Below are positions 1-10,079 of a stretch of 27,529 nt of DNA, piece after piece. Within the stretch, counting starts at the first letter, position 1. Every line of letters starts with the position of its first letter. This stretch comes from a virus: positions 1-27,529 of the IMG/VR virus record IMGVR_UViG_3300033143_003041. The stretch is one strand, 5' to 3'. A program made the translations under genes and the position numbers. The notes beneath the pieces were generated by a model. That model did no database searches. It was not told the origin of the DNA and saw only the letters and a program-made list of their open reading frames with translations.

Positions 1-600
1 AATTTATCGGTCCTATTTTTTGGCGACTTGTCTAAAAATGGGGTTACAACTCAAAGGGTCGGCGCGGACATTATTACAACATTCGAGGCCGGCGACTCGC
101 AAACCATTATTAAAAACGCTAGTATTGAAATCGGCCTGGCCCAAGGCGCGACTAATCAACAAGTTTTGGCCCAAGCTATTGCAAAACTAAAAGTTTCGTT
201 GGGCCCTCAAATTGGAACCAAAACAGTTGTTTATCGCAATGGTTTTAGTTATTCGGGGTCGGTTAGCGGTCTACTAGATCAATTGTCGGCGGAAATGGGC
301 GTTAAATGGTCCATAAACGACGGCGAAATTACTTTTTTAGGTCCTGGCATTACCGAACCGGGTCGAATTATATCACTAGGTCCCGATTCCGGACTAATAG
401 GAACCCCGACAAAAACTAAAGATGGTTTTAAATTCAACTCACTATTAAATGCGGACATTAGACCGGGTAAAATGGTTTTCGTTGAATCTCAAATTGCGCT
501 AGGAATAGCAGGGGCAACGATTAAGGTTCAAAAAGGTAAATATGTCGGCGATACTCATGAGGGCGATTGGTTGGGGAAATTTGAGGGGTTGATTTTATGA
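1..600 (+). CDS. Baseplate hub protein (5' end outside the window)
   Basis: The frame is open from base 1, so the true start lies upstream; the TTG at 28 is only the first in-frame start-like codon. The C-terminal pattern is typical of hub proteins of contractile-tailed phages: a segment reading YSGSVSGLLDQLSAEMGVKW, then WSINDGEITFL, then LIGTPTKTKDGFKF with an LLNADIRPGKMVFVES stretch, ending GDTHEGDW. From family knowledge, such proteins form the central baseplate ring to which the spike attaches and through which the tail tube is built. The stop overlaps the start of the Gp138-like spike gene (TTATGA), so the two are probably translationally coupled, as expected for hub and spike partners. 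The hub assignment rests on motif memory and gene order; I am fairly sure of baseplate, less of the exact subunit. Confidence 0.68.
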   Translation, partial: NLSVLFFGDLSKNGVTTQRVGADIITTFEAGDSQTIIKNASIEIGLAQGATNQQVLAQAIAKLKVSLGPQIGTKTVVYRNGFSYSGSVSGLLDQLSAEMGVKWSINDGEITFLGPGITEPGRIISLGPDSGLIGTPTKTKDGFKFNSLLNADIRPGKMVFVESQIALGIAGATIKVQKGKYVGDTHEGDWLGKFEGLIL

Positions 601-1238
601 GCGAGGAAAATCCAAGAACCCCGACATTGGCCGAAACAATTCAGAAATTGGTTGACGCTAAATTCCTAGATTTGCATACCAACTTACCGGTTAAAATAGT
701 TTCTTATAATTACGTCCAAAATTTGGCCGTTGTTCAACCATTATTAAAAAGAAAATATAAAAGCGAGGATTTCCCGGTTGAGTTGCCGACCATTTCAAAT
801 GTTCCGGTTGCGTTCCCTAGAATTGGAAACGCTTGGTTGCGTTTACCGGTTAAACCAGGGGACGAGGGTTCGATTAAAATAATGGAACGTTCAATAGACA
901 AATGGTTAACCGAGGGTGGTTCCGTAGACCCGAACGACCCTAGAAAATTTAGTTTGTCCGACGCAGTTTTTGAACCTGGTTTAACGAGTCAAAAAAACAT
1001 AATGATTTCGGCCGGTGCAAATGGTAGCCTAGAATTGCAACATAATAATTCATATATTGAGATTTCTGAAACTGGTAAGTTTAAAATTTCGGACGGCGTA
1101 AACGAGTTGTTCGACATACTGGTTACATTAACCGAGGATTTAAAAACAGCAACGGACGGCATGGGAATCCCTTTTAATGGCGCGACAATAGCGAAATTTG
1201 AGGCCTTAAGGGTTAAACTCGATTTAATGAAAGGTTAG
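597..1238 (+). CDS. Gp138-like baseplate spike protein
   Basis: 213 residues. The N-terminal 120 or so residues match the Gp138 N-terminal (OB-fold) family: a short helix (LAETIQKLVDAKFLDLHTNL), then PVKIVSYNYVQNLAVVQPLL, then VPVAFPRIGNAWLRLPVKPGDEG and a downstream DAVFEPGL segment. The rest is short beta repeats and a helical tail (ELFDILVTLTEDLKTATDGM). In this family the OB domain joins the spike to the hub and the C-terminal beta part makes the membrane-piercing needle under the baseplate. The start at 597 has a GAGGGG ribosome binding site and overlaps the hub gene by 4 bases. The protein is short compared with many spikes, so the piercing tip could lie in the next, secreted-looking gene or be absent. 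Confidence 0.78.
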   Translation: MSEENPRTPTLAETIQKLVDAKFLDLHTNLPVKIVSYNYVQNLAVVQPLLKRKYKSEDFPVELPTISNVPVAFPRIGNAWLRLPVKPGDEGSIKIMERSIDKWLTEGGSVDPNDPRKFSLSDAVFEPGLTSQKNIMISAGANGSLELQHNNSYIEISETGKFKISDGVNELFDILVTLTEDLKTATDGMGIPFNGATIAKFEALRVKLDLMKG

Positions 1239-1241
1239 ATT

Positions 1242-1568
1242 ATGAAAAAGTTAATAATTCTTTTATTTTTGATTTTTAGCGTAAATGCTTTTTCGGCAAT
1301 GGTTCCGTCGGTTTGTGCGAACTTAGTTGTTACTCAAATTAAAACAATAAATACATCGTTAACAGGTTCGGCGGAAACCGAGGCCATTGCAATGTGGACG
1401 GCCATTTGTACCGGAATTATTAACCACATAAAAACGTCGGCCGATTTGAATTTACAGGCGGGCGATATTCCAGTTCCGGCCTTAGGTTTAATCGGCGCGT
1501 TACCAGGGGCCCCCGTAACCGGGGCGGCCGTAACTAGTGCAATTTTATTGCCTATGAGGATTCAATAA
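1242..1568 (+). CDS. Small signal-peptide protein within the baseplate operon
   Basis: 108 residues, function not recognised. Residues 1-19 are a clear Sec signal: two lysines, a leucine/isoleucine-rich core, then a cleavage-like FSA before MVPSVC. The mature part has two cysteines and a C-terminal Gly/Ala/Pro/Val-rich stretch (PVPALGLIGALPGAPVTG). An AAGG ribosome binding site precedes the ATG; the gene sits 3 bases after the spike gene and 1 base before the wedge gene, so it is expressed with the baseplate. Small Gly/Ala/Pro-rich proteins do occur between spike and wedge genes in related phages, but a signal peptide there is unexpected because baseplates assemble in the cytoplasm. Alternatives are a spike-associated protein whose hydrophobic N-terminus is not cleaved, or an exported factor. 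Confidence 0.62.
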   Translation: MKKLIILLFLIFSVNAFSAMVPSVCANLVVTQIKTINTSLTGSAETEAIAMWTAICTGIINHIKTSADLNLQAGDIPVPALGLIGALPGAPVTGAAVTSAILLPMRIQ

Positions 1569-1569
1569 T

Positions 1570-1935
1570 ATGACCCAAATAATCCAAACACTAGAGGGCG
1601 ACATTGATTTTACAAATAACACTTTTTCAATAACTAAAAATTTATCGGACGAGGAAATTGTTCAATCCTTAAAACAAAATCTAAAAACGTTTTTAAATGA
1701 ATGGTTTCTAGATTTGTCGATTGGTTTGCCTTATATTCAAATTCTTTTTGTAAAAGGAACGCCGCCCGAGGTTATAGAGGCCGCGTTTAAGGATGCGATT
1801 ATTAAGACTAATGGGGTCGAAACATTAAACAGTTTCGACGATTTGGATTTAGATTCGGGAACCCGCAAATTGTCGGTTAATTTTGACGTTACGACAATCA
1901 ACGGGAATAATGTAACCATTAACGAGGTAATTTAA
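1570..1935 (+). CDS. Baseplate wedge protein, gp25-like
   Basis: 121 residues, the usual length for the T4 gp25 / P2 W / Mu gp46 group. Diagnostic layout: an early DIDFTNNTFSI segment, a central KQNLKTFLNEWFLDLSIGLPY helix-loop, where gp25 members have an LLT-x-x-GEW-type patch followed by GLP-Y, and a C-terminal pair of beta strands. The protein is a small structural part of the wedge that contacts the sheath and J-like proteins. A GAGGA ribosome binding site lies at about 1555-1559. It is immediately followed by the J-like gene, the standard order in contractile tails. Confidence 0.8.
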   Translation: MTQIIQTLEGDIDFTNNTFSITKNLSDEEIVQSLKQNLKTFLNEWFLDLSIGLPYIQILFVKGTPPEVIEAAFKDAIIKTNGVETLNSFDDLDLDSGTRKLSVNFDVTTINGNNVTINEVI

Positions 1936-1936
1936 T

Positions 1937-3133
1937 ATGGCGTTTGGTTTAACGGTTGACGGATTTTTTATAAAACGTTTGGCCGACATAAAAGCGGAAA
2001 TAGAACAACGGTTTCGGGATGAATTCGGCGACGAAATAGATTTGCGCCCTCAAACACCCCAAGGCCTAATTATCGGCATCATGTCCGAACGCGAGGCGTC
2101 GGTTTGGGAACTAGCTCAAACGGTTTACGACTCCCAAAACCCAAACAAAGCAATCGGGAAACAATTAGACGATGTTGTTGCCATTACCGGGACAACTAGA
2201 ACACCGGCCCAAAACTCAACTATTGACGACGGCGTTGCCAGGGGTGACAACGGAACGGTTCTAGACCCCGGACTAGGCGACATTATTGTTAGCGTTGCGG
2301 GAAATCCGGACGCTAGGTTTAAAGTTACCGGCGGGCCTTATACGATTGACATTGTTGACGGCGGAACTTTTAAATCGTTGCCAATTACTCTAGTTTCCGA
2401 GGAAACCGGCGAAATTGTGGCCAACACCGGAACGCTAACAGTTATCGAAACACCCCAAGCGGGTTTAGATTCATTTATAAATGAATCCGACGCAACTCTA
2501 GGGTCGGTAATTGAATCCGACCCCGATCTAAAATTAAAAAGAAATACGGAATTACAAATTGCCGGTTCGGCAACAATTGACGCTATTATTGCCGAGCTAA
2601 ATGCTAGAGCATTAACAACGGCCGTCATTGTTTTTCAAAATGTTACCAGTATTATTGACCTAGACGGTCGACCCCCGCATTCGCTCGATATTGTTGTTTT
2701 GGGCGACATTGAACAAGACTTGGCCGAGGCAATTTTTGCGGTCGTTGGCGGCGGTATAGAAACAATCGGCGACATTACTAAGGCCGTTCTAGATTCCGAG
2801 GGGTTTTCCCATACTGTTAAATTTTCAAGGCCAGCACCGATTGAAATTTACATTGAAATGGACCTAACCATTAATGGGGATTTATACCCGGTTGACGGCG
2901 ATGACCAAGTTGAGGCCGCGTTATTAGCCTATGGGGAATTGCAAAACGTGGGACAAGACGTTATTGTTTTTGGTTCCAATTCATTAATTTGCGCAGTTAA
3001 TGACATTCCGGGTATTACGGACGTCGTTATTAGAGTTGGTAAAAATGCCGGACCGCCAAACGACAACAATGTTGTTATTGCGGCCCGAGAAATAGCGGAA
3101 TTTGATTCGGCTAGAATAACAATAGTGAGTTAA
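1937..3133 (+). CDS. Baseplate J-like wedge protein
   Basis: 398 residues, normal for Mu gp47 / P2 J relatives. The N-terminus (RLADIKAEIEQRFRDEFG, then LRPQTPQGLIIGI and EREASVWELAQTVYDSQNP) and the following GKQLDDVVAITG-x-TRTPA are hallmark J-family features. The middle has beta-rich decoration (GTVLDPGLGDIIV, ETPQAGLDS) and the C-terminal half contains AVIVFQNVTSIIDLDGRPPHS and EIYIEMDLTING. J-like proteins form the wedge dimers that cross-link the baseplate periphery and carry tail fibres. A GAGG site at 1925-1928 within the end of the wedge gene gives a good ribosome binding site. Its place between gp25-like and DUF2612 genes supports the call. Confidence 0.88.
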   Translation: MAFGLTVDGFFIKRLADIKAEIEQRFRDEFGDEIDLRPQTPQGLIIGIMSEREASVWELAQTVYDSQNPNKAIGKQLDDVVAITGTTRTPAQNSTIDDGVARGDNGTVLDPGLGDIIVSVAGNPDARFKVTGGPYTIDIVDGGTFKSLPITLVSEETGEIVANTGTLTVIETPQAGLDSFINESDATLGSVIESDPDLKLKRNTELQIAGSATIDAIIAELNARALTTAVIVFQNVTSIIDLDGRPPHSLDIVVLGDIEQDLAEAIFAVVGGGIETIGDITKAVLDSEGFSHTVKFSRPAPIEIYIEMDLTINGDLYPVDGDDQVEAALLAYGELQNVGQDVIVFGSNSLICAVNDIPGITDVVIRVGKNAGPPNDNNVVIAAREIAEFDSARITIVS

Positions 3134-3136
3134 TTA

Positions 3137-3826
3137 ATGGCGACGGAAATCGTTAAAATTACCGACCATGAGGCCCGAGCGTTTGCCCGGTTTTTCGAAC
3201 AATGGAAAAATAAACCTAACATGGTTAGCTCGATTAGTTCCTTGGGTGGCGGTTATCCCGACATGGAAACCATGTTTTTCGACTTACTTGACAAGCGATT
3301 TAATATTGATGCCGCCGAGGGCGAACAATTGGACGTTATCGGAATTATTGTTGGCCAAGGGCGTTTAAATTTCGACGACGCTTTTTATCGGATTTTATTA
3401 AATGTTAGAATTGGAATAAATATTTCCGAGGGCGAACCCGAATCAATTATTTCAACGGCCAAAATATTAACCTCGGCCGATTTTATTCATTATATGAACC
3501 TAAGGGACGGCGAGGTTGCAATTGGGACGGACGGCGTTATTGATTTAGTTACTAAGGATTTTTTATTATTTAATTTACAAAAAGTTTTAATGGGGGGCGT
3601 TCGCCTCGATTATGTTGCAACATATGAAAAAGACGAGGCATTTGCGTTTAGCGGCGTAAATGCGACCGCGGCCGCTAAGGGTTTCGGGACAATAGCCGAC
3701 GGATTAGTTGGCGGAAAACTGGCAAAAATTCACGTTTTAAAAAATAATTTTTCATTTAATGGAAACGCAACCGGCGATAATGGGTTTGGAACAATTGCCG
3801 ACCCGTTGGTTGGCGGTGTATTCTAA
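3137..3826 (+). CDS. DUF2612 baseplate/tail protein
   Basis: 229 residues. The N-terminal 120 residues fit DUF2612: an early helix followed by METMFFDLLDKRFNIDAAEG, then EQLDVIGIIVGQGR and a FYRILLNVRIGINISEGEP segment. Family members sit directly after J-like genes and occupy the place of tail protein I / Mu gp48, linking wedge to fibre. The C-terminus carries a duplicated Gly/Ala motif: GFGTIAD-x-LVGG occurs twice, near residues 182-193 and at 218-228. Such repeats are typical of the fibre-facing end and may be the docking site for the next gene product. The ATG follows the J stop by 3 bases, with only a weak ribosome binding site. Confidence 0.78.
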   Translation: MATEIVKITDHEARAFARFFEQWKNKPNMVSSISSLGGGYPDMETMFFDLLDKRFNIDAAEGEQLDVIGIIVGQGRLNFDDAFYRILLNVRIGINISEGEPESIISTAKILTSADFIHYMNLRDGEVAIGTDGVIDLVTKDFLLFNLQKVLMGGVRLDYVATYEKDEAFAFSGVNATAAAKGFGTIADGLVGGKLAKIHVLKNNFSFNGNATGDNGFGTIADPLVGGVF

Positions 3827-3850
3827 TGAAAATACAAGGGGAAAATAGAA

Positions 3851-4471
3851 ATGGCAAAACCAGTAAGTAAACCGGATTGGACGGTTGGAAATCCGGATTT
3901 CGGGACCGTAACGGTCGAACCAACCGCGCAGAAAAAAGAAGATGGTTGGTTTGCCGATGAAAGGCCGCCAAGGGAATTTTTCAATTGGTTATTTTATATT
4001 ATCGACGCTTGGATTAAGTATTTCGAGGGCGTAACGGACGGATTGATTGCGCTGCAATCGACGTTTGATGCGGTTGTTGGAACGGGCGGAACTCATGCCG
4101 ATATTAACGAGGTTATGAACGACGGGAACATTGCCAATATAAAGCGAATTTTAGTTATTTCGCCCTTGGTTGTTGTTGTTAAGCAAACTATAAACCAACC
4201 CGACATTCACATTGAATTTAAACCTAACGCAACGTTTACGGACGGGGCGGACTTACCGACGGGCCTAGAATTGACCGCCGTCGCAAAACGTTGCAATATT
4301 CTTTATGGGCGTTTTTCGGGGTTTGACAATGGCGGCGGCGACGAGGCAATTACCTTGTTAGCAGGGGCCGACAATTGTCTATTAATGGGAAATAGATTTT
4401 TTAGCAATAGTAATGATATAACCGACAACGCAGATAATACGAGCATGGTCGGAAACATAGTTGAGGTATAA
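3851..4471 (+). CDS. Tail fibre / appendage protein
   Basis: 206 residues. The N-terminal third is the kind of segment that attaches fibres to the baseplate: WTVGNPDFGTVTVEPT, then GWFADERPPREFFNWLFYII, a pattern seen at the start of many phage fibre proteins. The C-terminal part is built of short beta strands with Asn and Gly turns (GRFSGFDNGGGDEAITLL, LMGNRFFSNSNDI, MVGNIVEV), consistent with a short beta-helix. It is probably the first fibre component, made after the DUF2612 protein. The ribosome binding site is AAGGGG at about 3837-3842. The last codons overlap the ribosome binding site of the next gene. Receptor specificity cannot be judged. Confidence 0.65.
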   Translation: MAKPVSKPDWTVGNPDFGTVTVEPTAQKKEDGWFADERPPREFFNWLFYIIDAWIKYFEGVTDGLIALQSTFDAVVGTGGTHADINEVMNDGNIANIKRILVISPLVVVVKQTINQPDIHIEFKPNATFTDGADLPTGLELTAVAKRCNILYGRFSGFDNGGGDEAITLLAGADNCLLMGNRFFSNSNDITDNADNTSMVGNIVEV

Positions 4472-4475
4472 CGAA

Positions 4476-6347
4476 ATGAGATTAAAAACAAAAATTTTAT
4501 TGGGGTTTCAAATCTCAATACTTTTAACCTCGGGCGCAATGGCGGCCGGGATTCCCGAGAAACATCAAACCGATTTTGTTCAAATTGGCCGACAATCCTC
4601 GGCCGACCCGGCGGAATTTATTTTTGATGTTGGGGACGGGGCAACCAATCCGACAATTTCGGTCGACAAGGCCGCAAAAACGTTTGATTTAGACAAGGCT
4701 ACGAGAATTCAGGGCGATTTAAGTTTAGGCGATGGTTCGTCGGGCGACCGATCTATTACCGTTGACGAGGGCGCGGGTTCCGGAAATCCTTATATGAAAT
4801 GGGACACGGCCACAAATAAATGGAAACAATTCGACGGGACAACCGAACGAGATATTGGGGCCGGCGGCGGTGGTGCGGCCGATGCAATTAATATTATAGC
4901 TGGTTTAAATCCAGGGGCCGAGGACGGCGAAATTAATTGGACCTATTCGGGGACGGGGTCATTTACAACAACAAGTGTTTTGGCCGAACGTTATGACGGC
5001 GAAAAATCATTTGTTACGGATTTTGACGTTCAAGCGGAAACATTAAAAATAGTGGAAACAACAATTTCCGAGGGCCTTTATGGCCAGGCCTGTCAAGCTA
5101 GGTTTTTCTATATTGGCGGCGACTCAACCATTGATATTACGGCAACGGTTGAAAACGGGAACGATAATCAAGTTGGTTCGCAATCATTTATTTTAAAGGC
5201 CGTAACGGTATGGACCCCAAATGCAACCGACATAGGCGGCGACGCTCAATTGGCCAATTTATATTTACAAATTGAACAAACAGGCGTTGGCAACTCGGCA
5301 TCGTTTAGACATGACAAGGTTCATTTGGGCGGTTTGATTGGATTGGTTGAGGTTGCGACGCCGGACGCAATGGGCGCAAAAATAGGGTCGACGGGAACCG
5401 TTACAAGCGAGAGCGCCGATTTTATTCAAGGGGATTGCACCAACGCCGACCCTAAAGTATGTACCTTTGTTTCGGGGTCATTTACCGTTACACCTGTTTG
5501 CGTTGCCAGTATTGAAAACGGAACGGCTAGAGTGGCGACAATTGAGGCTATAAGTAATACAAGTGTTTCCGTGCAATCCTACTCAACTAGATATAGTCCG
5601 GTTGAAGAGGCGGCCGATTCATTATTTTTAATTTGTCACAAACAAGGCGTCGACGCAAAACAATCCGTTACGGTTATAAAACATTTTCCTAAAGTTAGTG
5701 AGATAACTAACGTGTTTTCCGCTAAACATGACGGGTCTAGCATTATTTCTGACGAAAACGTTGATTGGATAAGTGGAAATTGTACCGCAGCGAACCCAAC
5801 GGTTTGCACTTTTTCTGCAAATTTTTCCACAATCCCTAATTGTGTTGCAACAGGAACGCAATCAGAAACCAAGGCAGAAATAACGGCATTGTCAACTAGT
5901 TCTATATCAATCCAAAGGCTTGACTCGGCCGGGTCCGGCGTTTTAAGACCGTTTACCCTGGTTTGTCATAAAACGGGCGACGATTACAAAACCCCAACGG
6001 TTCAATATATTATTCCTAATCAGGTTGAAACTACGGTTTCAAAAGGAACCAAGACAACATCATGTCGGGTTAATTTAGTTGGCGGAACACCGGGCGACGG
6101 AAATTCTCATTGCGCTAGTTGGGTTGATTCTTACACCGATACCGGGGTCGGCGATGTAACTCTAAATTTAACGGCCGGCGTTTTTTCAGATGAACCCATG
6201 TGCAACGTTACAACGGTTGGGAATGCTGGAAATATTTTATCAACACCCATAGTCGCAATAAGCAACTCGTTGATAAGGGTTAGGGTTTACGACGACATAA
6301 CTTTAAGTGATTACGATTTTAACATTCGATGCGAAGGAGCGAGATAA
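4476..6347 (+). CDS. Exported fibre-like protein with repeated cysteine modules
   Basis: 623 residues from the ATG at 4476, chosen over the in-frame TTG at 4461 because GAGG lies 9 bases upstream at 4463-4466. Residues 1-23 form a Sec signal (basic start, hydrophobic core, AMA|AG). Next comes a fibre-like passage (DPAEFIFDVGDGATNPTISV, then LSLGDGSSGDRSITVD) and a Gly-rich linker near 129-135. A beta-sandwich-like region spans about 135-290. The C-terminal half repeats a module: cysteines at 321, 329, 342, 387 and again at 436, 444, 456, 497, with VCTF, P-x-CVA and a final CHK shared. A divergent third set is at 530, 546, 576, 619. The spacing suggests conserved disulfides, which fits export. 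By position it is a receptor-binding fibre; the signal peptide suggests it could instead act at the host surface. Confidence 0.6.
   Translation: MRLKTKILLGFQISILLTSGAMAAGIPEKHQTDFVQIGRQSSADPAEFIFDVGDGATNPTISVDKAAKTFDLDKATRIQGDLSLGDGSSGDRSITVDEGAGSGNPYMKWDTATNKWKQFDGTTERDIGAGGGGAADAINIIAGLNPGAEDGEINWTYSGTGSFTTTSVLAERYDGEKSFVTDFDVQAETLKIVETTISEGLYGQACQARFFYIGGDSTIDITATVENGNDNQVGSQSFILKAVTVWTPNATDIGGDAQLANLYLQIEQTGVGNSASFRHDKVHLGGLIGLVEVATPDAMGAKIGSTGTVTSESADFIQGDCTNADPKVCTFVSGSFTVTPVCVASIENGTARVATIEAISNTSVSVQSYSTRYSPVEEAADSLFLICHKQGVDAKQSVTVIKHFPKVSEITNVFSAKHDGSSIISDENVDWISGNCTAANPTVCTFSANFSTIPNCVATGTQSETKAEITALSTSSISIQRLDSAGSGVLRPFTLVCHKTGDDYKTPTVQYIIPNQVETTVSKGTKTTSCRVNLVGGTPGDGNSHCASWVDSYTDTGVGDVTLNLTAGVFSDEPMCNVTTVGNAGNILSTPIVAISNSLIRVRVYDDITLSDYDFNIRCEGAR
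6335..6339 (+). promoter_or_regulatory. AGGAG ribosome binding site
   Basis: AGGAG sits 7 bases before the ATG at 6347 and decides that start over an upstream in-frame codon at 6329. It is one of only seven GGAG/CTCC occurrences counted in the whole window; nearly all other genes use GAGG or AAGGG instead. The preceding GAAG at 6333-6336 overlaps it. Confidence 0.6.
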
Positions 6348-6916
6348 TGAAAAAATATTTAATAATTATATGTCTATTTTTGGTTAGTTTTTCGGCGCAT
6401 TCTCTTTATATGTCTAAATCGGACATGGAAAACTGCGAACAAATAAAAAAAGTTTACCGCCATAAAGCAAAATGCGGAAACGATTGCGTCAAGGTTCCAA
6501 AAAGCCATAACTGTGAAACCTTTTCCGAACAACCTACAAATGTTGACGATTTAGAAAAACCAAAATATTCAAAAAACCAATTGAACAAATGCGGAGAATA
6601 TTGCGAGTCATTATTTCCCGACTTGGTTTGTGTAGATTCAAATGAGAGACCAATTTTAAATTTAGACCTAGAGGAAATTTATTGCACTAAGTTTACTGGT
6701 TACGAACAAAAATCGGTTATGAGGTTCCGCGAGGATGCCGCTAAAAAAGCTAGTTACGAGGCCGCAAAACAGGTTTTAAAAGACGAAAAAGCGGCGGACA
6801 AATCTAAACGAGCGCAATTAAAATCGTTGTTAGATGGTTTAAAAAGCGGGACGGATTTAACACCCGCACAAAACAGGAAACTGCAAATTCAGGTTATTAA
6901 GAAACTTTTTAAATAA
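6347..6916 (+). CDS. Secreted Cys-rich protein of the lysis region
   Basis: 189 residues, family not recognised. The ATG overlaps the previous stop (TAATG) and has an AGGAG ribosome binding site. Residues 1-19 are a Sec signal (MKKYLIIICLFLVSFSAHS). The mature protein has eight or nine cysteines in pairs before residue 110 (AKCGNDC, NKCGEYC, LVCVD, IYCTKF), suggesting a disulfide-bonded periplasmic or surface domain. The C-terminal third is a charged, alanine/lysine-rich helix (YEAAKQVLKDEKAADKSKRA). It lies between the fibre and holin-like genes, so a role in lysis, host-envelope modification or virion decoration is possible. Its pattern resembles the Cys-rich lipoprotein at 7791-8123, though I see no convincing overall alignment. 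Confidence 0.6.
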   Translation: MKKYLIIICLFLVSFSAHSLYMSKSDMENCEQIKKVYRHKAKCGNDCVKVPKSHNCETFSEQPTNVDDLEKPKYSKNQLNKCGEYCESLFPDLVCVDSNERPILNLDLEEIYCTKFTGYEQKSVMRFREDAAKKASYEAAKQVLKDEKAADKSKRAQLKSLLDGLKSGTDLTPAQNRKLQIQVIKKLFK

Positions 6917-6925
6917 GGGTTCGCC

Positions 6926-7162
6926 ATGTCCGACGATGTTCAAAAATTGATTTTAACCGAAATGCAAAACATACGAAAAGAGGCCAGGGCCGACAATCGG
7001 GATTTGCATACTAAAATCGACAAAAATTATAAAGGTTTGAACGAAAAAATTCACGCAATGGACCAAAAAGTTTTGGGCAACAAGTTAAAACTTGGAACAA
7101 TGTTGAGCGTTTTAACTATTTTTTGGACCGGACTAGTAAATTATTTTAGTAAAAAATTATAA
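6926..7162 (+). CDS. Holin-like protein, XhlA-like topology
   Basis: 78 residues. The first 50 are a soluble coiled-coil-like helix with heptad spacing (NIRKEARADNRDLHTKIDKN, then GLNEKIHAMDQKVL); residues about 57-74 form one membrane helix (LGTMLSVLTIFWTGLVNYF), closed by a KKL tail. This topology, with soluble N-terminus and single C-terminal membrane span, is that of XhlA/hemolysin-type phage proteins that work with holins. An AAGGG ribosome binding site precedes the ATG. The endolysin lies four genes downstream, supporting a lysis role. It could instead be a generic membrane-tethered phage protein. Confidence 0.6.
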   Translation: MSDDVQKLILTEMQNIRKEARADNRDLHTKIDKNYKGLNEKIHAMDQKVLGNKLKLGTMLSVLTIFWTGLVNYFSKKL

Positions 7163-7199
7163 GTTTTGGCAATCATGTCAATGAATAACGAGGTAAAAA

Positions 7200-7490
7200 A
7201 TGAGTAAATTAGGCGTAAAATTTGACGACGGAAAACTGGTATTTGGAGTTGATGCAAACCAGGACGGGGAAAATTCTCTAACCGCTAGATTGCATATGAG
7301 TGAGGCAATTAGTGAAATGATTGCCAAGGGCGGAAAAATTGAGGGCGCTAAGGTTGTCGATTTCAGTTTTAGCGGGACAAAACTAAAATTAAAACTAGAC
7401 ACGGACAAGGACGGCGAGGAAATGTTTGACCTTGAACTTGATTTGGCCGAATCGTTTGACGAGGTTACTAGTTTTGCAGCAAAAAAATAA
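7200..7490 (+). CDS. Small acidic protein with two Asp-rich loops
   Basis: 96 residues, no family recognised. The protein looks internally duplicated: each half has a beta strand (KLVFGV / KLKLKL) running into an acidic loop (DANQDGEN at 18-25, DTDKDGEE at 67-74), then an amphipathic stretch ending in ..AxSxxE or AESFDE. The loops resemble the D-x-N/D-x-D-G part of calcium-binding loops, but the following helix of a true EF-hand is not evident, so calcium binding is only a possibility. A GAGG ribosome binding site stands 7 bases before the ATG in a short 37-base gap after the holin-like gene. Its end overlaps the next gene. Confidence 0.55.
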   Translation: MSKLGVKFDDGKLVFGVDANQDGENSLTARLHMSEAISEMIAKGGKIEGAKVVDFSFSGTKLKLKLDTDKDGEEMFDLELDLAESFDEVTSFAAKK

Positions 7491-7794
7491 AAAAGATCGA
7501 AAATATTACCGGGACAAGGTTTCCGGATTAATCAAAACAGGCGTCGTCAATTCGGCGCTTGTTTATGTTGGCGGTATTTGGACTAAATTCGCCGGGGGCC
7601 CAATCGGTTGGATTGCCGAAAAACTACTTGAATACGTTTGGGATAAAACGGGCGACAAATTTATTAGGTTTCTGGTTAGAAAATCCTATCTAGGGGTTGA
7701 TTTAAAAACCGGACAAATAAGAATAAAAAAAATAAACAAGGCCAAGATTGAGGGCGACGAACAAGAATATTGGCGCAACATAGGCGACATATGA
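7474..7794 (+). CDS. Small basic protein of the lysis region
   Basis: 106 residues if started at the TTG at 7474, preferred because GAGG at 7461-7464 gives 9-base spacing; the frame stays open upstream to 7426 but only inside the previous gene. The N-terminus is basic (QQKNKKDRKYYRDK). Residues about 15-48 are hydrophobic and glycine-containing (TGVVNSALVYVGGIW, GGPIGWIAEKLLEYVW), which could be a membrane-associated hairpin or amphipathic helices. The C-terminus is hydrophilic and basic. Position between holin-like and lipoprotein/endolysin genes suggests a second holin or antiholin, but this is inferred from context alone. Confidence 0.5.
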   Translation: MQQKNKKDRKYYRDKVSGLIKTGVVNSALVYVGGIWTKFAGGPIGWIAEKLLEYVWDKTGDKFIRFLVRKSYLGVDLKTGQIRIKKINKAKIEGDEQEYWRNIGDI

Positions 7795-8123
7795 AATATT
7801 TATTAATAATGGTTGTTTTGTATGGTTGCGGGTGTTTTAAAATAAAGGACGACGTTCGCGTTATTTGGTCCTTTAGATTTAATAAATGTAGTTGTCAATG
7901 GTATTCGTTTAAAAAAGTTAGAAATACAACCGAACCGATTCCATGCGAGGATTTTTTTTTAAAATATTTCCCCGAACTAGAATTGAAACCAAATCATTTA
8001 TATTGCGACGACTTGGTTGGTTTCTCTAAAGAGTCATGGGCCAAAAATATAACACCCCATGGGCGGGAAACGGTCGCATGTCTAGAGGACAACAAAAAAA
8101 TAAAAAAAAGAAAATGTAACTAA
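7791..8123 (+). CDS. Cys-rich lipoprotein of the lysis cluster
   Basis: 110 residues from the ATG at 7791, which overlaps the previous stop (ATGA). Residues 1-13 are a short lipoprotein signal (KYLLIMVVLYGC) with a lipobox ending at Cys13, followed by another Cys two residues on. The mature part holds about seven further cysteines (KCSCQW, PCEDFF, YCDDL, ACLED, KCN), so disulfides are likely after export. Being next to the endolysin it could serve as an outer-membrane spanin (Rz1-like), but Rz1 proteins are usually short and proline-rich and no matching inner-membrane partner is evident. An envelope-modifying role is equally possible. Confidence 0.55.
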   Translation: MKYLLIMVVLYGCGCFKIKDDVRVIWSFRFNKCSCQWYSFKKVRNTTEPIPCEDFFLKYFPELELKPNHLYCDDLVGFSKESWAKNITPHGRETVACLEDNKKIKKRKCN

Positions 8124-8651: not shown

Positions 8652-10079
8652 ATGGCCGACAACGATTCCGAGATTAAATTACTTTTTAATAATCCAGCTA
8701 GTTTTATATTTGATTCGGATTTGGTTGAATTTGTCGGCGGAAAAGATAAATTAAAAGATCAAACACCTATAAACGAAATGTATTACAACAATTTTGTTAG
8801 TAAAAATTTGTTAAGATCGGCCGGCGGTATAAAAACCGGGACCCTAGTTAATGGGGCCCTGATAACCGGCGAACGACTTGATTTGACGGCCCTAACATCG
8901 CCTTATTGGCATTTCAATCCGACCGGAATGCTAGGGGGCGACCCGAGGATTGCGACCTATTTATTTGAATGGGAACCTCAATTTACAGGGCCGCCGGCCG
9001 CTAGTTATAATTTATTTATTGAACAAAAGGCCGTCGGGGATAACACAAACCAGTTAGAGGTTCGACATAATGCGGGTAGCGGAATTATGATGCTTTCATT
9101 GAGGAACGCGGCCGGTGGATTCGTTGGCGCTTTAAATGTTCCAAGTTTTGCGGTTGCTGCAACTAAGTTCGAAATAGCGATTATTTTAGATTCAATCAAC
9201 GGTAATCAATACTTTTTTGTTAACGGACTATTAAAAGACGACGCCAATTTTGTTTACGCTCGCAGTAACGAAATAGGTTATAGTGTTTTTGGCGATTCCG
9301 CCCAAGATGCTAAATGCTTTATTGATAATGTCCAAAAATTTGACGTTGTTCAAAATGACGAGGATTTTCCGGACGATTTACCTAGAGTTATACCTCAAAC
9401 CATTTATTCGTTAACTAAACCAACGGTTGAATCAATAACCCCTATTTCCATGACCCAATTAAACGAAATGGCGGCCGCGGAAACAAAACCAGGCGCGGAC
9501 GAAATTAAATATATGCTGAAATGGCAAAACGATCTATATTGGTTAAATGCCGGCGTTGTTGAGATTTCGGACGGAACACCGGCCCAGCGGAATACGTTAA
9601 CAGAAATTCAAGCGGCGTTGGCCATTGCCCCCATTGACATTAGTCCCGATTCGGCGGTTTTTTTAGTCCATGATTTACAGTCGGCGGACGGAGAGTCAAC
9701 CCCTGAATTGGAATCGGTTACGCTTGGCTATGGGTTTTTTCTCGACCCCACATTGCCGGGAACCTGTTTAGTGACCGGAATAGTTACCGACAATTCGGGC
9801 AAACCGGTTGTTGGCGCGACTGTTAGCTTTGAATCCGTCGACCATTTTAATAACGACCATTTTGTTGGCCCAAAATCTAAATTTACAACCGACGCCAAGG
9901 GCGAGTTTTTTGCGCGACTATTCGAAACTGCGACTCTAGGAAATTTAGTCGACGCCATTATTACATATATTGACTCGGATTTTCCGGACGAACCAATTGA
10001 AAAATCCTATAAAGGTTTAATTATTCCCGATTTACCCGAGGAAAAATTTTCAAAAATTGTAGCCGATTCCCAAGCTTAA
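8652..10079 (+). CDS. Adhesin-like structural protein with LamG-like and Ig-like parts
   Basis: 475 residues, no single family recognised. The middle (about residues 100-235) reads like a concanavalin/LamG beta sandwich (YNLFIEQKAVGDNTNQLEVR, FEIAIILDSINGNQYFFVNG). The C-terminal domain (about 380-450) has the carboxypeptidase-regulatory/Ig-like signature GIVTDNSGKPVVGATVSF followed by FTTDAKGEFFARL. A short ISDGTPAQRNTLTEIQAALA segment sits between. Such combinations occur in tail adhesins and capsid decorations. It has no signal peptide and an AAGGGG ribosome binding site, and it is the last gene before the opposite-strand exonuclease. Location after the endolysin, away from the other tail genes, suggests an accessory host-range or decoration protein. 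Confidence 0.5.
   Translation: MADNDSEIKLLFNNPASFIFDSDLVEFVGGKDKLKDQTPINEMYYNNFVSKNLLRSAGGIKTGTLVNGALITGERLDLTALTSPYWHFNPTGMLGGDPRIATYLFEWEPQFTGPPAASYNLFIEQKAVGDNTNQLEVRHNAGSGIMMLSLRNAAGGFVGALNVPSFAVAATKFEIAIILDSINGNQYFFVNGLLKDDANFVYARSNEIGYSVFGDSAQDAKCFIDNVQKFDVVQNDEDFPDDLPRVIPQTIYSLTKPTVESITPISMTQLNEMAAAETKPGADEIKYMLKWQNDLYWLNAGVVEISDGTPAQRNTLTEIQAALAIAPIDISPDSAVFLVHDLQSADGESTPELESVTLGYGFFLDPTLPGTCLVTGIVTDNSGKPVVGATVSFESVDHFNNDHFVGPKSKFTTDAKGEFFARLFETATLGNLVDAIITYIDSDFPDEPIEKSYKGLIIPDLPEEKFSKIVADSQA

Follow-up and report, generated by a model that had tools for sequence, protein, structure and literature searches.

In the usual picture, assembly of tail fibres takes place in the reducing cytoplasm. 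A gene at the fibre position of a viral contig in IMG/VR (27,529 bases, analysed at full length and referred to here as the window) nevertheless appears to encode an exported protein with regularly spaced cysteines. This raises the question of whether the protein is mounted on virions after passing through the periplasm or, as the original prediction also allowed, is a host-surface protein such as a receptor mask or exclusion factor. The best explanation, to which we give roughly an even chance, is a receptor-binding fibre that undergoes folding and oxidation in the periplasm and is taken up by virions when the cell lyses.

A gene for a probably exported protein and its tail-cluster setting

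The gene (positions 4476–6347, + strand) extends from an ATG at 4476, with a Shine–Dalgarno sequence, GAGG, 9 nt 5′ of it, to a TAA at 6345–6347, and was assigned as an exported fibre-like gene from its translation, a module profile and its relatives. The 623-residue precursor had no matches in PHROGs and nothing better than E 0.15 in Pfam. It is carried by one contig; the identical contig L002 stops upstream of the gene. The tail cluster preceding it (28–3826, +), assigned from PHROGs and Pfam, comprises a baseplate hub (28–600, cut by the window edge and 283 codons long in L002), a spike (597–1238), a gp25-like wedge protein (1570–1935), a J-like wedge protein (1937–3133) and a DUF2612 baseplate protein (3137–3826), all on the + strand. 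These are followed by a short, 206-residue tail-fibre-like protein that has no signal (3851–4471, +; weak PHROG tail-fibre matches, E 5e-4), a possible docking partner or ordinary fibre. The gene at 4476–6347 comes next, at the usual place of a phage tail fibre.

The setting is similar in other phages, with the gene and its relatives lying within or adjoining the tail or baseplate cluster, as is characteristic of tail fibres. In myophages, including the window and the cultured Bdellovibrio phage phi1422 (NC_019525), the exported gene comes directly after baseplate or fibre genes. In G005 and G006, two siphophage contigs examined over their whole length (gene functions being our reading of the sequences), it comes after tape-measure and Dit-like genes; a large tail-hub-like gene then follows it in G006, and a similar hub-like gene lies at the opposite contig end in G005. 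Some of the genes downstream of the exported fibre are endolysins.

The TAA of the fibre gene overlaps the ATG (TAATG) of a second gene for an exported, Cys-containing protein of 189 residues (6347–6916, +), recognised from its sequence. Signal-bearing genes occupy the +1 position also in L077, L079 and L085, and exported Cys-containing proteins at this position were noted in these three and in L026 and L033; the C-terminal helical domain of the L079 and L085 proteins resembles that of signal-less +1 proteins in L073, L071 and L083. A downstream tail-fibre-assembly (Tfa) partner was considered and is not relied on, the match covering only about 50 C-terminal residues.

Two other window genes are of separate interest. 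Between the spike and gp25-like genes, 1242–1568 (+) encodes a second Sec-signal protein of the tail cluster, which the alignment of phrog_5576 (65 residues) enters at residue 27. A homologue in L003 (6514–6837) has a signal and an apparent one in L079 (about 1586–1804) has none, which suggests from sequence a tail-cluster protein that has gained or lost its signal. After a CHAP endolysin gene, 8652–10079 (+) encodes a signal-less 475-residue protein, perhaps a further adhesin, with carboxypeptidase-regulatory and Big_1 matches (Pfam) and a region that may be LamG-like.

The Sec signal and the cysteine pairs

Residues 1–23 (4476–4544, +) form a predicted Sec signal peptide, composed of an n-region (MRLKTK), an h-region (ILLGFQISILL) and a c-region with the predicted cleavage site (TSGAMA^AG). 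Signals were scored with a home-made heuristic, not SignalP. Its first, stricter form missed the window protein owing to a Gln in the h-region; it was loosened once, and the final form, with which the window protein is positive, accepts 2.5% of shuffled N-termini. A signal was likewise found in 40 of the 41 relatives with intact N-termini, 35 of the 40 having Ala as the predicted −1 residue, at odds with the cytoplasmic assembly, free of any export signal, that characterises tail fibres. L070, the only negative intact relative, is signal-like by eye (MKKLFLLLLLFTLDCFA^QP). The start of L026 was set by hand to an upstream, signal-bearing ATG in place of the internal ATG chosen automatically.

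Upstream genes passed the same heuristic, allowed any start codon among the first 40, in 4 of 114 cases (3/39 at −1, 1/38 at −2 and 0/37 at −3). The three positive −1 genes (L036, L080 and L081) themselves encode signal-bearing, fibre-like proteins. None of 26 fibre-region genes was positive in phiPLPE, ZF40, As56 and CP-T1, which belong to the phi1422 virion group and infect other hosts (PMC3391216). Export does not extend to fibre-type stalks as a class, an idea ruled out by the stalk homologues of one exported fibre, which mostly have no signal in other phages. In L120, an unrelated phage type, two signal-bearing, fibre-like genes (2633–4780 and 5428–8079) stand in tandem after a tail-hub-like gene, from which exported fibres may be wider than the present family.

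Cysteines occupy positions 206, 321, 329, 342, 387, 436, 444, 456, 497, 530, 546, 576 and 619 of the precursor, and the two four-Cys modules first noted from the sequence are recovered from them exactly. Module 1 (C321, C329, C342 and C387; spacings 8-13-45) lies at 5358–5657 (+) and matches at residues 295–394, with an E of 5e-31 that is coloured by its membership of the training set of the profile, which was built from relatives' modules. Module 2 (C436, C444, C456 and C497; spacings 8-12-41; 5703–5990, +) matches at residues 410–505 (E 2e-25). The proposed third, diverged module (6063–6335, +) is real to judge by a profile match at residues 548–620 (E 2e-8); it keeps Cys3 and Cys4 (C576 and C619), and an additional pair, C530 and C546, lies before it.

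Of 71 non-redundant modules, 51 contain both Cys1 and Cys2, 20 contain neither and none has one alone (Fisher p = 4e-18), and among modules below 40% identity the counts are 20/0/0/11 (p 1e-8). Cys5 and Cys6 show the same tendency (9/1/3/58 in 71 modules; 3e-8), Cys3 and Cys4 are nearly invariant, and 35 of 44 proteins have an even total of cysteines (p 1e-4), the redundancy filter controlling for relatedness in part in these covariation statistics. Such a pattern is the one expected of disulfide pairs and is hard to explain otherwise. Because Cys1 and Cys2 are never discordant, the disulfides are very probably real, and we hold export and disulfide formation, as read from these sequences, with high confidence. 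The combination of a signal and paired cysteines, far beyond chance in the sequences compared, recurs in about 42 independent phage contigs. The conflict with a wholly cytoplasmic fibre that was originally pointed out for one gene is thus general, given the 40 of 41 signals and the perfect covariation of the pair.

Likely receptor-binding domains and the mosaic of relatives

The mature protein begins with a glycine- and acid-rich, stalk-like region (residues 24–139; 4545–4892, +), delineated by alignment and a low-confidence model, the start of which is similar to those of L079, L038 and L085 ('..IGR/KPQS..'). It leads into a CBM4-like β-sandwich domain with the single Cys 206 (residues about 140–287; 4893–5336, +), located by structural alignment of the predicted model. 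The full-length AlphaFold2 (AF2) model is of low confidence (mean pLDDT 56) and was used for this middle domain only; its neighbours in VIA-align are TSP4 of phage CBA120 (Z 12.7), CBM4-2 (Z about 11) and the K2-2 tailspike (Z 10.7), and on this model it is a tailspike-type CBM4 domain.

The structure prediction originally proposed for the Cys module gave a lectin-like knob: AF2 modelled module 1, with 53 module sequences, at pLDDT 90.8. At Z 5–6.8 it resembles the tailspike C-termini of Pam1, LKA1, phi297 and AP22, the AP22 fibre gp53 and the R1 and R2 pyocin fibre knobs, together with H-type lectins and discoidin; the next matches have Z 4.5 or lower. Since Foldseek alone gave E 0.035 or worse for the module model, an H-type-lectin knob of the kind found in tailspikes and R-pyocin fibres is a likely but not certain assignment. 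H-type lectins such as Helix pomatia agglutinin, the top Foldseek matches (Z about 6), are animal lectins, sharing 22% identity across 73 residues in the structural alignment and giving no significant sequence match. Searching solved structures by sequence returned only noise with the module profile and, with the whole family, a match of the CBM region to 8qpg (E 1.5e-6). Some members match BppL_N or CBM_5_12 and some match tail-fibre PHROGs, the window protein itself having no sequence-family match; L029 contains phi1422-fibre repeats (64% over 42 residues). With receptor-binding domains of fibre and tailspike type present, 'not a fibre' is unlikely to hold at the level of structure, and we are confident, if slightly less so than of export, that the protein is of the receptor-binding fibre type. 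Tailspikes, fibres and pyocin knobs are virion or tailocin parts assembled in the cytoplasm; the export signal and covarying Cys pairs set the present family apart from them.

Queried directly, the window protein found no relatives in IMG/VR or 50,697 phage records. With the C-terminal half as query a single weak relative emerged, L004, which supplied the motif SDENVDWI; searches of IMG/VR with this motif and with module alignments then yielded sets of 16 and 36 loci, partly overlapping, and about 42 relatives altogether. All baits were C-terminal modules, leaving the N-termini of the relatives unselected. Over its first 90 residues, the mature protein varies with tail type (Mantel r 0.43; permutation maximum 0.18), whereas the C-terminal modules, common across tail types, do not (r 0.17; maximum 0.20). 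In these sequences, a tail-linked N-terminus joined to C-terminal modules common to several tail types is a mosaic of the kind seen in virion fibres. Unrelated tails are combined with one and the same N-terminal type in L034/L068, and the link could also come from simple gene proximity or shared descent.

The exported gp68 of phi1422, a hypothetical protein in its record with QIKG as the predicted start of its mature form, joined the relatives by gene position. Like the window protein, it has a Sec signal, directly follows a fibre gene (the ordinary fibre gp67), starts with a CBM-like sequence ('NFINNAIKNPSAEI') and has Cys-containing C-terminal domains; unlike it, gp68 has no four-Cys module (0 module-profile matches). 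It matches the relatives L025, L034, L059 and L083 by blastp at E 1e-6 to 3e-8. The primase, helicase, Sak4-like and exonuclease genes of the window have their best match in phi1422 among five reference phages, and phi1422 is among the top matches, with others, of the primase against the whole phage collection. Because of phi1422, whose host is given by its record, and of these window genes, the other members likely also infect Bdellovibrionota.

Confirmation sought in genomes was not obtained: genome scan A5 gave no loci, genome scan A3 gave one, and the terminase of one siphophage member gave no host clue. The single locus, L038, is the sole genome-collection match and lies on a 42.8-kb phage contig in the 1.2-Mb MAG ADurb.Bin212, which was not accepted as its host because the tetranucleotide profiles of the contig and the MAG fit less well (r 0.84–0.89) than those of two MAG contigs with each other (0.96) and because 192 genomes sampled from the phylum of the MAG held no further match.

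Virion fibre or secreted adhesin

In the proposed pathway, the tail-operon gene would give rise to a receptor-binding protein of tail-fibre type, which the host Sec pathway would export with removal of the signal. Folding in the periplasm would lock the C-terminal lectin-like knobs by disulfides Cys1–Cys2 and Cys3–Cys4, and virions leaving the cytoplasm at lysis would meet the soluble fibre, which would dock on the tail and then bind surface glycans of the next host. The docking, its timing and the binding of receptors are what we infer from signals, Cys covariation, tail-cluster position, receptor-binding domains, the link between N-terminus and tail type and the L120 tandem, which together suggest a virion fibre. 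Against docking, the window may already have its ordinary fibre in one of the signal-less candidates 3851–4471 and 8652–10079. Virion proteomics was found for no member (the phi1422 paper makes no mention of mass spectrometry), nor was an exported tailed-phage fibre found in the open-access full-text literature, and we know of no tailed phage shown to mount a Sec-exported fibre.

Display on the infected cell, either as a receptor mask against superinfection in the manner of other exported phage morons or as a phage-supplied, prey-binding adhesin resembling the MAT fibres described below, is a less probable account of the family, though one to be taken seriously, and is kept alive by two precedents. 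The mosaic adhesive trimer (MAT) superfamily of Bdellovibrio consists of bacterial, surface-displayed adhesins with a conserved β-rich domain of about 130 residues after the signal (PMC10769870). Compared by that description, they share with the present family a signal peptide followed by phage-fibre-like modules, whereas the genes here are phage genes in tail clusters; fewer than 20 residues separate the signal from the first binding domain in several relatives, leaving no room for the MAT domain in L023, L018, L078 and L080. Lambda Lom is an exported outer-membrane protein whose gene lies between those for the tail spike and the side fibre (PMC12309495), but it is a β-barrel, and the domains modelled here are β-sandwich or lectin-like parts of a modular fibre. 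A surface protein would also suit phi1422, which has gp67 besides gp68, and the several phages with a signal-less fibre-like gene just upstream. On the other side, we recognised no lipobox, β-barrel, second transmembrane segment or anchor of another kind in the exported proteins, the gene is embedded in a tail operon, and the mature N-terminus follows tail type where a common host anchor would be conserved across phages. The sequence does not decide between the two readings first proposed, and leans to virion mounting because of the tail-cluster position, the fibre and tailspike domains and the lack of a recognised anchor.

A soluble lectin that is freed at lysis, coats receptors on debris and neighbouring cells and so spares the progeny, never becoming part of the virion, is improbable. 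The predicted soluble, exported, anchorless lectin-like architecture would fit it, as would the second exported Cys-rich protein, coupled to the first through overlapping stop and start codons, but it leaves unexplained the tail-linked N-termini and the fibre stalk repeats of members such as L029. Least credible, an outside chance, is a hydrophobic N-terminus that anchors the protein in the virion with no export, the cysteines being oxidised only after release. This would preserve the orthodox cytoplasmic route; against it stand the positive n-region, hydrophobic core and small −3/−1 residues in 40 of 41 otherwise unlike members, and a Cys content of 2.34% in the family versus 0.21% in the −1 gene, a difference biased upwards in part by the Cys-containing baits.

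With gp68, an exported relative in a cultured phage, the choice between a virion fibre and a secreted adhesin becomes directly testable. Signal-bearing, disulfide-patterned fibre genes recur in the tail clusters of siphophages and myophages, so that either some tailed-phage assembly is extracytoplasmic or secreted fibre-like adhesins are widely encoded by phages beside their tails. We tentatively suggest, at somewhat less than even chance, that several tailed-phage morphologies, probably on Bdellovibrionota-like hosts, and at least one other group (L120-type) carry disulfide-bonded periplasmic fibres that are mounted on the virion only at lysis, a second, extracytoplasmic stage of assembly. 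Were they secreted adhesins, phage genes would be linked, in Bdellovibrio-like predators, to the MAT-type adhesins by which prey is recognised.
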